Program-made: the position numbers and the translations under genes
The notes under the pieces: model-generated
What the model was told of the DNA's origin: nothing
Seen by the model: only the letters and a program-made list of their open reading frames with translations
Database searches by the model: none
In this document: in pieces, positions 29,495 to 34,409 of the stretch
Layout: each line of letters starts with the position of its first letter
Position numbering within the stretch: position 1 is the stretch's first letter
Source of the DNA: Methanomassiliicoccaceae archaeon
GTDB taxonomy: Archaea > Thermoplasmatota > Thermoplasmata > Methanomassiliicoccales > UBA472
NCBI GenBank assembly: GCA_003153895.1
Contig: PMBU01000076.1
Coordinates: forward strand, 3,972 to 41,031
Reading direction: 5' to 3'
Length of the DNA: 37,060 nucleotides

Positions 29495-29947
29495 TTACTT
29501 GCCCTCCTCATAGAGCTTCTGGAGATGGTCTATCGTCTTCCGATAAGCTTCCATAGCCATCTCGACGTTCGCTTCAGTGAAGTTCCAGGCCTTCGACAGA
29601 TCGCCATAGCGGATCCGATAACCTTTCTTCTTATCTCCGCTCCGGTCGGTGTCCACTTCCTCCAATATGTCTATGGCCTTCAACTTGTTGAGGTGACGAT
29701 AGATCGTCGGCTTCGTGGTCTTGAGCTTGGCAGCCATCTCCTCAACCGTCCAGGCGCGCTTAGTGTTTTTCATAAGGCACTCGGTGAACATCTTGTAGGG
29801 TACGCTGTCCTGAACGTTCGATGCGCTGGTCTTCGGGTCGTAGCCTTTGGGAAGATAGCCGATCATCTGCAGGAATTGGAGCGAGACGTCATCGGTGTCA
29901 TCCAATGGGGTTAGAGGAGTGTTGCTTACCACTTGAAGTTCGAACAT
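29495..29947 (-). CDS. Winged-helix transcriptional regulator
   Basis: 150 residues with a winged helix-turn-helix at about residues 60-110: KNTKRAWTVEEMAAKLKTTKP as HTH helices and TIYRHLNKLKAIDILEEVD leading to the wing, with basic GDKKKGYRIRYG. An N-terminal arm (FELQVVSNTPLTPL) and a C-terminal helical region probably mediate dimerisation or ligand response. It is the first gene of the operon that ends with Elp3, and its TATA-like element lies just outside its start (29966-29975). Two perfect inverted repeats between it and the divergent ABC transporter operon are candidate binding sites, suggesting control of both. Confidence 0.83.
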   Translation of the reverse strand: MFELQVVSNTPLTPLDDTDDVSLQFLQMIGYLPKGYDPKTSASNVQDSVPYKMFTECLMKNTKRAWTVEEMAAKLKTTKPTIYRHLNKLKAIDILEEVDTDRSGDKKKGYRIRYGDLSKAWNFTEANVEMAMEAYRKTIDHLQKLYEEGK

Positions 29948-30154: not shown

Positions 30155-30187
30155 GACGCGCCCACTAAACAGCCTTAGGTGTCTTCT

Positions 30188-31318
30188 ATGGACAAGAAAG
30201 TGCTAACGGCCCTTGCAGCGGTGGTCGTGGTAATAATCGCGATCGGAGCGGTGATCGCGAGTGGCGTACTTACCACACCTCCTCAAAGCAATGTCATTTA
30301 TTATAAAACCTATTTGCCAAGCCAGCAAAAGACCGTCATTGGAAATCATAGTGTCGACGGTGGAATCATGTGGGAGCCTTTTGTCTCAGATGCGGTCCTA
30401 AGTGGAACAGGACACGTGCTGGTCAATTCGAAGGACCTATTCCCGAACCATCCATGCTGTGTCATTGTGGTCAGGGAGGAATTCGCGGTGGCTCATCCCG
30501 ACCTCGTGAATGCAGTTCTCAAGGCGCATATAGAAGCCAATAAATGGATAGCGGATGCAGTTGCCAATAAGGTAACCAATCCGACCAACTACAGCAAGCT
30601 GCTTGGTATGGGGGCGTCCTTCAGCGGTGTCTCCGAGGCAGCGGTGGCAGCATCGCTGGACGACATGATATTGGACTATCATTTGACCTCAGCGTTCAAG
30701 AGCGGAATGGCGAACTTCACTCAGTTGTACCTCAATACTACGCCTCCTCTTCTGAAAATGTCGGATATCACCGGAAAGGGCTACTCCTCTGTCCAAAACT
30801 TCATTGACAACTACTTAAATGACAGCTACCTCGCTGCCGCGGAAGCGGTTCAACCCAGTGCGACAAGCCTTGGAACGGTAAGCATTGCCTATCTGACAGG
30901 TGACCTTCACCAGTTCGCCAGAGTTGTCGCAATGAACACAACCCTATTCCCAGGAGGCAAGAACCTGTTCCAAATCTACGGAGTGACCGTCACGGACCCG
31001 CAACCCGGTGGATACCAGAATGGCGGCGGTGTGATGACGGCGATCACCGCTGGAAGCTTAGCGAACGGGCCGAATGTGGGGTATTTGGGATGCGCACCAG
31101 CAATCCGCAACTATCTTACCGGTGATATCACCAAGCTGAACACCCGCATTGTTGCAGCGGTCAACAGCGAGGGTTCCGCCCTGGTTGTGAATAGTGACAT
31201 CCACACTGTCAAGGATCTTGGTGGTAAGGTAGTGGCCACGCCCGGAGTCTCGTCAATTCAACAATTGATGCTGATCGAGATTGCGAAACAGTACAACATG
31301 ACCTTGTCATCGAAGTAA
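30188..31318 (+). CDS. ABC transporter substrate-binding protein, apparently circularly permuted
   Basis: A 376-residue SsuA/TauA/NMT1-family binding protein behind an N-terminal membrane anchor (residues 5-27). Family motifs are present but in reversed order. Residues about 35-215 carry GGIMWEPF (59-65), DLFPNHPCCVIVVREEF (83-99) and the helices that normally end the protein. Residues 228-376 carry VSIAYLTGDLHQ (231-242), LGCAPAI (300-306), VNSEGSALVV (325-334) and TPGVSSIQ (351-358), which normally begin the mature protein. The C-terminus ends where the N-terminal segment would conventionally continue. Substrates of the family are nitrate, sulfonates, taurine or pyrimidine precursors; the ligand is unknown. 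ATG 30188 is chosen; GTG 30179 is in frame. Confidence 0.85.
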   Translation: MDKKVLTALAAVVVVIIAIGAVIASGVLTTPPQSNVIYYKTYLPSQQKTVIGNHSVDGGIMWEPFVSDAVLSGTGHVLVNSKDLFPNHPCCVIVVREEFAVAHPDLVNAVLKAHIEANKWIADAVANKVTNPTNYSKLLGMGASFSGVSEAAVAASLDDMILDYHLTSAFKSGMANFTQLYLNTTPPLLKMSDITGKGYSSVQNFIDNYLNDSYLAAAEAVQPSATSLGTVSIAYLTGDLHQFARVVAMNTTLFPGGKNLFQIYGVTVTDPQPGGYQNGGGVMTAITAGSLANGPNVGYLGCAPAIRNYLTGDITKLNTRIVAAVNSEGSALVVNSDIHTVKDLGGKVVATPGVSSIQQLMLIEIAKQYNMTLSSK

Positions 31319-31364
31319 ACCCCTTACCAAACCTTTTTCCTATTCCATTTCCTTGAGGGTTGAA

Positions 31365-32189
31365 ATGAGCACTACGATAAGTTCGCGCGTTAGAAAGCGC
31401 TTAGTCTTTTTTGTGAGGAAGGGCAAATTCTCCGACTTTATCGTCATGGCGCTCTCAATTGGGGTGTTCCTCGCCCTTTGGTATATCGCTTCAGACTTGC
31501 TCCATACAGTCTATTTCCCGAATCCCTCAACGGTGTTCGATGCCTTGATGAACTCATTCACCTACAGCAACCCTCAGGTTGGTGTATTGCTGATGGGACA
31601 GAACATCGCTGCTAGCATGACAAGGTTCCTGGAGGGGTTCGCCTTGGCGTTTATCGTAGCCCTGCCAGTGGGGTTGCTGATGGGGTATCTTAGATATGCC
31701 TATGATGTCGGGTCTCCAATAGTAGAGATCTTCCGGCCAATACCACCGATAGCTTGGGTACCGTTCTTCATCATCCTACTCGGTCCACTGGTTGGTCCGA
31801 TCTGGGTTATCTTCTTGGGAGCCTTCTTCCCAATACTCTCCAATGTTATTTTTGGGGTGAGAAGTGTCGATAATACATTGCTAGATGCCGCTAAGACTCT
31901 AGGCGCAAAGAGGATAACCATATTCTCAAAAGTAGTGCTCCCTTACACAATTCCATTCATCATGGCCGGCGTAACTATCGGCGTCGGAATTGCATGGATG
32001 TGCATCGTTGCCGCTGAAATGTTAGGAGCAGAAGGTGGAGGAGTTGGCTCCTATATTAGAGTGAACAGCGACCTCAACAATTTCCCTGCTATGTTTGCCG
32101 GGATGGTCGTAATCGCGGCTTTGGGGTTAATCACTCTTGGCGTAGCGAGACTTTTGGAAAAGCAGGTATCACCTTGGAGGGGCAAGTAA
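31365..32189 (+). CDS. ABC transporter permease (SsuC/TauC-like)
   Basis: A 274-residue inner-membrane permease with about six transmembrane helices. The coupling region is [20 protein letters not shown], the EAA-like loop that contacts the ATPase, and the first external segment has [11 protein letters not shown], typical of the nitrate/sulfonate/taurine group. ATG 31365 follows GAGGGTTGA and is preferred over an in-frame TTG 12 nt upstream. Its stop overlaps the ATPase ATG by one base (TAATG, 32187-32191). It is the middle gene of the transporter operon. Confidence 0.93.
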
Positions 32190-32986
32190 TGAGCATGCTC
32201 TCCATCAGCAATCTGGAGAAGGTCTTCACCAAAGGTAAAGGTGAGGAGCAGCTCCTGGCCATAAAGGACTTCAACCTGGAGGTGGAAGAAGGACAATTCA
32301 TCTGTCTGTTGGGCCCCTCAGGATGTGGCAAGACCACCTTGCTTAGGATTGTGGCCGGGCTGGAATTTCAGACCAGAGGAACGATCCTGATCAATGGCAA
32401 AACGATCACTGGACCAGGCTCCGACCGTGGAATGGTCTTTCAGGAATTCGGATTGTTCCCTTGGAGAACCGCGCGAAAGAACATCGAATTCGGGCTTGAG
32501 CTAAGGAAAGTGCCGGCCAAGGAGAGACAAACGATTTCGCAGAAATATATCGAACTGGTCGGTTTGAAAGGATTTGAGGATGCCCACCCCTATGAGCTAT
32601 CGGGAGGAATGAAACAGAGAGTGGGGATTGCCAGGGCATTGGCGAATGATCCAGCGGTGTTGCTGATGGACGAGCCTTTCGGGGCTCTGGATGCTCAAAC
32701 CCGCAATCTCATGCAGAAGGAATTGTTGCGCATCTGGAAGGAAACAAAGAAGACCGTCCTTTTCGTGACTCACTCTGTAGATGAGGCTTGTTTCCTAGCT
32801 GATCGCATCGTGGTCATGACGTCTAGACCAGGGGCTATAAAAGAGATCTTTCCTATCGATTGGGAGCGACCTAGAGACAGGGCAAGCGTGGAATTCGCCA
32901 ATCTGCGCAAAAGGATACTCGCCGAGCTGGAACGCGAAGTGATCGCTGGGCCTACCGCGCCAATCAATCCGACCGACAAGGTTTAG
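32189..32986 (+). CDS. ABC transporter ATP-binding protein (SsuB/TauB-like)
   Basis: A 265-residue ATPase. Walker A is [11 protein letters not shown], the signature is [15 protein letters not shown], Walker B is [15 protein letters not shown] and the switch His is in [15 protein letters not shown]. It energises the permease encoded upstream. GGAGG precedes the ATG at 8-nt spacing. Its stop codon and that of the convergent regulator gene overlap by 4 nt (32983-32986). Confidence 0.95.
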
Positions 32987-33504
32987 AGCGCTTTCTTCGC
33001 CGCGACCTCTATCGCGCGCAGCGCCGAATCCCTCGGAATGATGATCGAAACTGGGATGGAGAGCAGCTTCTCGATTGTCGGAGCGATTATCGGAGCGCAT
33101 ACCACGGCCAACGCCCCGTCCCGCTCGGCCATCACCGCGGCGATTATCGCATCCTCGACCGTCTGGGCCGGGTATTCCTTCACCTTGAGCGATTTCTCGC
33201 CCACCTGCACGATGCGCTCCTCGATCTTGCTCAATACCCCTCTGGATGCTATGACCGCGATGAACGGTCCGCTCGGCTGCTTCTCCAGCTGCCTTACAGC
33301 GCGAAGCACGCTTCTTACGGTCCTGAGATTGGGCTCGCGCTTCTCCTGCATGATCTTGTAAATGGTGCTGGGCGAGAGCCCAGTCCGGGAGCAGAACTGG
33401 TTCACGCTCATCTTCAGGTCCTCGGCCAGGATCTCACGCAACGCATTCTTGAACCCGTCCGGTCCGCGCATGATCCCCAAAATGAGCTCGTCCACCAGCG
33501 TCAT
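32983..33504 (-). CDS. XRE-like helix-turn-helix regulator
   Basis: 173 residues. An N-terminal HTH of the Cro/C1 type is seen at about residues 30-65: [20 protein letters not shown] followed by [19 protein letters not shown]. The C-terminal half ([20 protein letters not shown] onwards) is an alpha/beta domain of unknown ligand, found with this HTH in archaea. ATG 33504 overlaps the stop of the thioredoxin reductase-like gene as ATGA, so the two are co-translated; the longer open frame upstream is an out-of-frame shadow of that gene. Coupling to a redox flavoprotein suggests a redox-linked regulator, but this is inference. Confidence 0.82.
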
Positions 33505-34409
33505 TCGGGCTCTCCCGCGCCATACAGAACGAAATTGGCGGCGTTCGTGCCAGCGATGCACCCTTGACCGACCGCTCGGGCCAGTTGCCACGGTCGCCCG
33601 GTCACGTCCCCCGCTGCATATATGCCTGGAACCTCGGCCTCCATCTTCGCGTTCACGCTGATCAGTCCGTTCGGGTCCGGGATTATGCCCAATTCCAATG
33701 CCAGATCGGCAGAACCTTTTGCTCCCAGCTCGATAAAGACGGCGTCCACGTCAAGGACTCGGCCATCATCCAACATAATCTTCCTGACTCTCTGGTCACC
33801 CTCGATCTTCTTTGGCCACGCAGCTTTCACGACCTGCGCTTTGGTTGCGATTACCTTTTCCAGGAGGGGAGGTGCGACCGTCGGCTCCTTCGTCACCCAA
33901 TATACGTCCGAAGCGACGTTGGTCAATAGTACCGTAGAAATCGCGGCCATTGAATCGTTCCCAACCACGGCCACCTTCTTGCCTTTGAAGAAGTTCGCAT
34001 CGCAGGCGGCGCAATAGCTAACGCCTCGCCCAAGGAATTCCTTCTCGCCTTCAGCGTTCAGCCTCATTCGGGAGATGCCCAATGCCAGGATGACCGCTTT
34101 CGCGGTGAACTCGGTTTCGTGATCAGTATGGAGGACGAACTTGTCCCCCACTTTCTCTGCCTTCAGCACATCCTCCTCATAGATCTTCGCCCCAGCTTTC
34201 TTGGCTTGCTCCAAGCCAATGCTGACTATCTTTTGGCCCTTGATCCTTGGGATGCCGAAGTAATTCTCGATCTGCGCTTTGACCAGCGCTCCCTGGTCCG
34301 GACGTCCTATGACAACGGTCTTCACCTTCCGTCTGGCAGCGTGAATCGCCGATTGCAGACCGGCCGGCCCAGCACCGATTATAGCAACATCCGCATCAAT
34401 TGACTGCAT
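33501..34409 (-). CDS. trxB: Thioredoxin reductase-like FAD/NAD(P)H oxidoreductase
   Basis: 302 residues with the FAD-binding GAGPAGLQSAIHAARR (from residue 12), the redox-active C133-A-A-C136 (YCAACDANFF) and the second Rossmann motif VAVVGNDSM. The family end ATGRPWQLARAVGQG-like segment (GDVTGRPWQLARAVGQG) is present. It reduces thioredoxin with NAD(P)H or another donor; the second Rossmann site reads VGNDSMA rather than the usual GGGNSA, so the nicotinamide donor is uncertain. A thioredoxin gene lies 162 nt upstream on the same strand. An inverted repeat (34447-34465) sits before its start. Confidence 0.88.
   Translation of the reverse strand: MQSIDADVAIIGAGPAGLQSAIHAARRKVKTVVIGRPDQGALVKAQIENYFGIPRIKGQKIVSIGLEQAKKAGAKIYEEDVLKAEKVGDKFVLHTDHETEFTAKAVILALGISRMRLNAEGEKEFLGRGVSYCAACDANFFKGKKVAVVGNDSMAAISTVLLTNVASDVYWVTKEPTVAPPLLEKVIATKAQVVKAAWPKKIEGDQRVRKIMLDDGRVLDVDAVFIELGAKGSADLALELGIIPDPNGLISVNAKMEAEVPGIYAAGDVTGRPWQLARAVGQGCIAGTNAANFVLYGAGEPE

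Follow-up and report, generated by a model that had tools for sequence, protein, structure and literature searches.

The window, by which we mean the whole 37,060-nucleotide stretch of Methanomassiliicoccales DNA that was analysed, carries a substrate-binding protein (SBP) gene in an importer operon, an assignment that is established and is accompanied by a cognate permease and ATPase beside the gene. The SBP reading frame runs unbroken from the ATG at 30188 to the stop at 31318, and an in-frame GTG is found at 30179, 5′ of this ATG. Segments of the protein are named after their place in canonical family members, namely 1a (GYLxGDLHQ...GSPPA), 2a (NSEGS...TPGPSSIQHL), 2b (VIYW...WEPY...HPCC) and 1b (the C-terminal helices), and the arrangement found in the window is referred to as CP-A. 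The features of the locus are as follows.

29495..29947, minus strand: ArsR-type HTH regulator, divergent, kept beside canonical and permuted SBP genes alike
30188..31318, plus strand: CP-A NMT1/TauA-like SBP, 376 aa (ORF, Pfam, NCBIfam, AlphaFold, rotation test)
30188..30268, plus strand: N-terminal membrane anchor helix, residues 1-27 (AlphaFold helix 3-27; hydrophobic sequence)
30293..30496, plus strand: segment 2b, residues 36-103, the latter half of lobe 2, containing the WEPF and NHPCC motifs; third in the canonical order
30497..30853, plus strand: segment 1b, residues 104-222, the helical C-terminal portion of lobe 1; last in the canonical order
30872..31135, plus strand: segment 1a, residues 229-316, the N-terminal portion of lobe 1, containing AYLTGDLHQ and GYLGCAPA; first in the canonical order
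31142..31315, plus strand: segment 2a, residues 319-376, the initial half of lobe 2, containing NSEGSA and TPGVSSIQ; second in the canonical order
31353..32189, plus strand: ABC permease (BPD_transp_1, TauC/SaoP-like), same operon as the SBP (Pfam, NCBIfam, synteny)
32174..32986, plus strand: ABC ATPase (SaoA/TauB-like), same operon as the SBP (Pfam, NCBIfam, synteny)
32983..33591, minus strand: XRE-type HTH regulator, convergent, a conserved neighbour of the SBP cassette

The XRE-type regulator has a weak PrpR_N-like match in its C-terminal part and adjoins the cassette even in relatives that are mcrA-negative; it may be a sensor of the transported ligand. A second CP-A SBP module was found just upstream of the window (G000:C70, L003:1-2700, minus strand), and likewise in G001 (L005), where in both cases it forms the N-terminus of a surface-type protein of about 900 aa. 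In G000 the module precedes fn3, PKD, CARDB and beta-helix domains; in G001 it precedes repeats of fn3-like type and a membrane helix at the C-terminus. These surface-type modules have lost the HPCC motif, and no permease turned up within 1.5 kb of them. At the left edge of the window (about 1-1704; L003:3810-5675), a catalase-peroxidase-like ORF whose translation includes an ambiguous residue was identified by eye in this methanogen genome.

The segments of the window SBP follow the anchor in the order 2b-1b-1a-2a, compared with 1a-2a-2b-1b in canonical proteins. This inversion follows from the crossed Pfam matches, since residues 54-125 correspond to NMT1_2 positions 171-242 (E 2e-16) and residues 321-373 to NMT1 positions 66-119 (E 2e-5); the protein passes the cut-offs of both models (60.9 bits against 24.7 for NMT1_2 and 25.1 against 20.5 for NMT1). 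The NCBIfam matches are also crossed, and those of a canonical homologue are collinear. The window SBP scores below the NCBIfam cut-offs for SsuA_fam (95.8 against 163.5) and TauA (37.9 against 304), and the canonical homologue likewise falls under the SsuA_fam and taurine equivalog cut-offs. The TauA chain 6ssy aligns to the window SBP as two crossed pieces.

Rotation of the window sequence raised its alignment score from 314 to 598 against the anchor-free canonical homologue of G010 (24±6 for shuffled sequences) and from 368 to 644 against the canonical homologue of G034; shuffled sequences scored about 25±7 in the tests against these two homologues, and rotation brought no gain in canonical controls. 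After rotation, 129 of 319 residues were identical to the G010 homologue, with a sole gap of 6 residues located at the new termini. The best cut falls between ...SATSLGT and VSIAYLTGDLHQ, the junction being exactly SATSLGT/VSIAYL, and every segment is present. The window SBP is a true circular permutant of an NMT1/TauA-type SBP in which all segments are kept. The sequence-only reading had proposed such a permutation, which is borne out by the crossed Pfam matches, the rotation test and the AlphaFold model described below, and its further statement that nothing had been lost agrees with the full-length homology obtained after rotation.

Of the 147 Methanomassiliicoccales genomes searched, 132 gave a match. 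Typing with segment-wise HMMs identified four segment orders: canonical, CP-A, CP-B and CP-C. The canonical 1a-2a-2b-1b order was found in G010 (a single contig), G011 and G034 within the Methanomassiliicoccales, and in G221 and G384 in the wider group. A sixth family of the Methanomassiliicoccales (f6) carries CP-B, CP-C and tandem-fused copies. CP-B (2a-2b-1b-1a), in which residues 31-195 match NMT1_2 positions 75-241 in Pfam, occurs in this family, including the single-contig genomes G052, G056, G058, G093 and G097. In CP-C, which is carried by G055 (a single contig), G061, G101, G103, G112 and G113, the cut lies inside 2b; the chain begins xxLTNNxFPDHTCC and ends ...WEPQYQ..., an arrangement visible by eye in the translations, and residues 195-406 match NMT1_2 positions 7-187 in Pfam.

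The tandem fusions comprise doubled CP-B units in G099, G102 and G104 (frames of 770-793 aa) and a doubled CP-A unit in G019 (a 731-aa frame, L010:397-2523). The top Pfam match of the G019 fusion crosses the junction between the units, and the canonical domain is therefore reconstituted in sequence. Its first unit is degenerate throughout, having lost WEP, CC and GDLHQ, and its second unit is intact, so that the conserved unit is the second permuted one. This degeneracy marks the first unit as a duplicate without showing a step toward the canonical order; the idea that the G019 tandem represents a step back to that order is unsupported, given that the whole of the first permuted unit is degenerate.

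The different orders mostly occupy the same chromosomal position. The CP-A loci and the canonical G010 and G011 loci have in common a block consisting of a TPR protein, an Elp3-like protein, small proteins, an ArsR-like regulator, the SBP-permease-ATPase cassette, an XRE regulator, TrxB and thioredoxin. The Elp3-to-thioredoxin part of this block is shared by the canonical G034 locus, and its stretch between the ArsR regulator and thioredoxin, both included, by the CP-B locus of G126. Three genomes of the Methanomassiliicoccales, one of them a single contig, hold a canonical SBP between the same regulators, permease and ATPase. At three of the four f6 loci checked (G097, G099 and G112), no syntenic block was detected beyond the permease and ATPase; since only these two genes were recognised beside the SBP, the locus has either moved or had its flanks diverge in these genomes.

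We mapped the cut points through the TauA alignment, with the offset fixed by Leu204-Asp205. Domain II of TauA comprises residues 105-201, and its hinges lie at residues 103-106 and 200-202 (PMC6906117). The CP-A cut maps to TauA residues 141-151 approximately, in the middle of domain II, while the CP-B cut lies at about 92-94, before hinge 1, and the CP-C cut at about 186-188, before hinge 2. The earlier suggestion that the permutation places the anchor at the hinge consequently misfits the window protein, whose N-terminus is in the middle of lobe 2; it is in the sister family carrying CP-B and CP-C that the cuts lie near the two hinges. All forms inspected have an N-terminal anchor, either a helix or, in several, a lipobox-like AGC/SGC, and because it remains N-terminal in every one of them, its position is shifted relative to the fold.

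In the tree of permease and ATPase sequences, the CP-B/CP-C operons and the CP-A operons of family f4 form a joint clade (100/100), within which CP-B and CP-C make up one weakly supported lineage (81/30) with CP-C inside CP-B. The canonical G034 operon is sister to that of the window (98/95), canonical rows interleave with CP-A, and a tree constrained to a single group of canonical operons is worse by 78.6 log units (AU p 3e-56). Backbone support is weak in the SBP tree, and the polyphyletic appearance of CP-B in it is treated as long-branch trouble. Because the operon trees nest CP-C in CP-B beside CP-A, with canonical operons interleaved with CP-A, we conclude that the order changed three times or more (from canonical to CP-A, from CP-A to CP-B and from CP-B to CP-C), perhaps with reversion as well. 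A broader reading, to which we give an even chance, is that one orthologous Thermoplasmatota SBP gene exists in four orders and as tandem fusions, and that its permutation has been recurrent and reversible, the canonical order being regained via tandem intermediates.

The canonical order in G010, G011 and G034 might instead be a retained ancestral state, with CP-A having arisen several times independently at the same loop. Such a history would fit the basal position of the canonical SBPs relative to the CP-A clade of the Methanomassiliicoccales in the SBP trees, as well as the identical cut loop of the CP-A proteins inspected. It sits poorly, however, with the sister relationship of G034 to the window and the interleaving of canonical and CP-A operons, and a single gain followed by reversions is more parsimonious than the same permutation arising independently many times; we therefore regard it as a credible but somewhat doubtful account. 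Horizontal transfer could also have swapped canonical SBP genes into existing operons without any reversion, and a single canonical SBP clade is indeed not rejected in the larger, 60-row set (p 0.285). Nonetheless, this clade is rejected in the cleaner, trimmed 38-row set (p 0.0003), and the canonical SBPs of the Methanomassiliicoccales are nearest to one another and to the CP-A proteins of the same taxon (46-50%, against 23-42% for other canonical SBPs), which makes such replacement improbable.

The explanation that we favor, and consider very likely as a whole, is that the window encodes a membrane-anchored CP-A SBP of a TauABC/SsuABC-like importer, permuted via duplication and fusion and re-permuted in a sister family. 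An in-frame tandem duplication and fusion would have changed the segment order, the outer ends then being lost behind a retained N-terminal anchor. A short linker would thereby connect the former C- and N-termini of lobe 1 and the new termini would lie in a loop halfway through lobe 2, while the CP-A chain would still fold as one two-lobed clamp that may capture a small anion, probably sulfonate-like, and pass it to the adjacent permease and ATPase. In the sister family, the same gene would have been re-permuted to CP-B and then to CP-C, and in a few genomes the canonical order would have been retained or regained. The origin by duplication and fusion, which the sequence-only reading had raised as a possibility, is made plausible by the tandem-fused copies of relatives.

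AlphaFold modeling of the window SBP with 27 relatives gave a pLDDT of 91.6 and a pTM of 0.86, and the canonical G010 protein gave values of 87.3 and 0.81. The helix and strand lists of the two models match one to one once rotated, minor elements aside. The proposed two-lobed fold is supported by a confident model whose elements are those of the canonical protein in rotated order. Using Foldseek, which aligns in chain order, the canonical model had 973 PDB matches at E<=0.001, with TauA and SsuA on top and target TM values of up to about 0.8, whereas the permuted model had no PDB match at E<=0.001, its best matches being Bacillus subtilis OpuAC (E 1e-3, TM 0.33/0.46). The sequence would also be compatible with a permuted chain that forms a domain-swapped dimer or works as an SBP in two parts instead of a monomeric rotated fold, but the confident monomer model and the ordinary length of the 1b-1a linker render this very unlikely.

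When the same order was sought in related genomes, the full collinear CP-A form, counted from match coordinates, was found in 38 genomes from five families of the Methanomassiliicoccales, and CP-A was also present in further families of the class and phylum (Thermoplasmatota) and in the single-contig genomes G170, G160 and G201. Although the genome of the window exists as a fragmented draft of 157 contigs with 79% completeness, an assembly chimera or mis-joined contig has practically no chance of being the cause and is ruled out as an artefact, since CP-A occurs at the syntenic locus in dozens of independent genomes, some of them single contigs. A CP-A SBP in G031:C46 (L101) is split into two frames (residues 2-261 and 260-372) by a frameshift, a pseudogene state or a sequencing error.

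With regard to the ligand, TauA G61, G79 and T132, which hold the sulfonate by main-chain amides (PMC6906117), align with G279, G301 and S356 of the window SBP, and TauA W176 aligns with W62. The specificity position Leu204-Asp205, of which Asp205 binds the amine of taurine in TauA, aligns with C90-C91; TauA Gln30 lies outside the alignment. This Cys-Cys pair is present in 56 of 58 CP-A entries, all 24 CP-B/CP-C entries and 5 of 7 archaeal canonical entries, and in none of 13 bacterial outgroup entries; the two CP-A entries without it are paralogues fused to surface domains, and the Staphylococcus aureus SBP 3un6 also has it. Judging from these residues, our best guess for the predicted ligand, a tentative one, is a small sulfonate-like anion. 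Coenzyme M has appeal because of the Cys-Cys in place of TauA Asp205 and the mcrA gene in the genome of the window. mcrA was detected in this genome and in most other Methanomassiliicoccales members checked, and no match to it was found in G034. As the sole ligand, coenzyme M was rejected: relatives in the class and phylum with no detectable mcrA match have the same Cys-Cys transporter kind, so that the transporter is probably not methanogenesis-specific.

Circular permutants found in nature are generally regarded as isolated end points, and their homology is often doubtful. Here, the homologous and mostly syntenic SBPs of one transporter occur in three permuted orders, in the unpermuted order and as tandem fusions. 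Since relatives of the window SBP carry the canonical order and two further rotated ones, mostly at the same spot, the locus offers a natural series for studying circular permutation, in which its origin, reversibility and functional consequences (which lobe is tethered, hinge motion and SBP docking) are directly testable. The permutation also explains the poor, split profile-search scores of these SBPs.

Natural circularly permuted SBPs are already known from the OpuAC group and TpMglB-2. OpuAC of Bacillus subtilis was related to ProX by a natural circular permutation among class II SBPs using CPSARST, and belongs to a group of glycine-betaine-binding proteins that are circularly permuted (PMC2395249). 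It resembles the window protein in being a natural permutant SBP, and its structures are the best Foldseek matches of the latter; however, it belongs to another family, the window protein scoring 17.4 against the Pfam OpuAC cut-off of 21.2 and matching the structures only in part, and in the sources consulted we found no single locus that alternates between several orders. TpMglB-2 of Treponema pallidum is, like the window protein, an ABC importer SBP that is tethered to the membrane and naturally permuted in a circular manner, but it has a Cluster B sugar-binding fold, a single permutation and a permuted part that is poorly similar in sequence (PMC4990184), whereas all parts of the window SBP are about 40% or more identical to canonical homologues. 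In the open-access literature, we found no circularly permuted SBP for the NMT1/TauA family or in archaea, and no locus with several alternative permutants; a combined literature search on permutation driven by duplication likewise returned nothing. TauA and SsuA (NMT1 family; TauABC/SsuABC) share with the window protein the sequence of each segment, the operon partners and several ligand-site positions, and differ from it in that the window order is rotated, Leu204-Asp205 gives way to a Cys-Cys that is conserved across the archaeal transporter clade, and the scores fall below the NCBIfam cut-offs.
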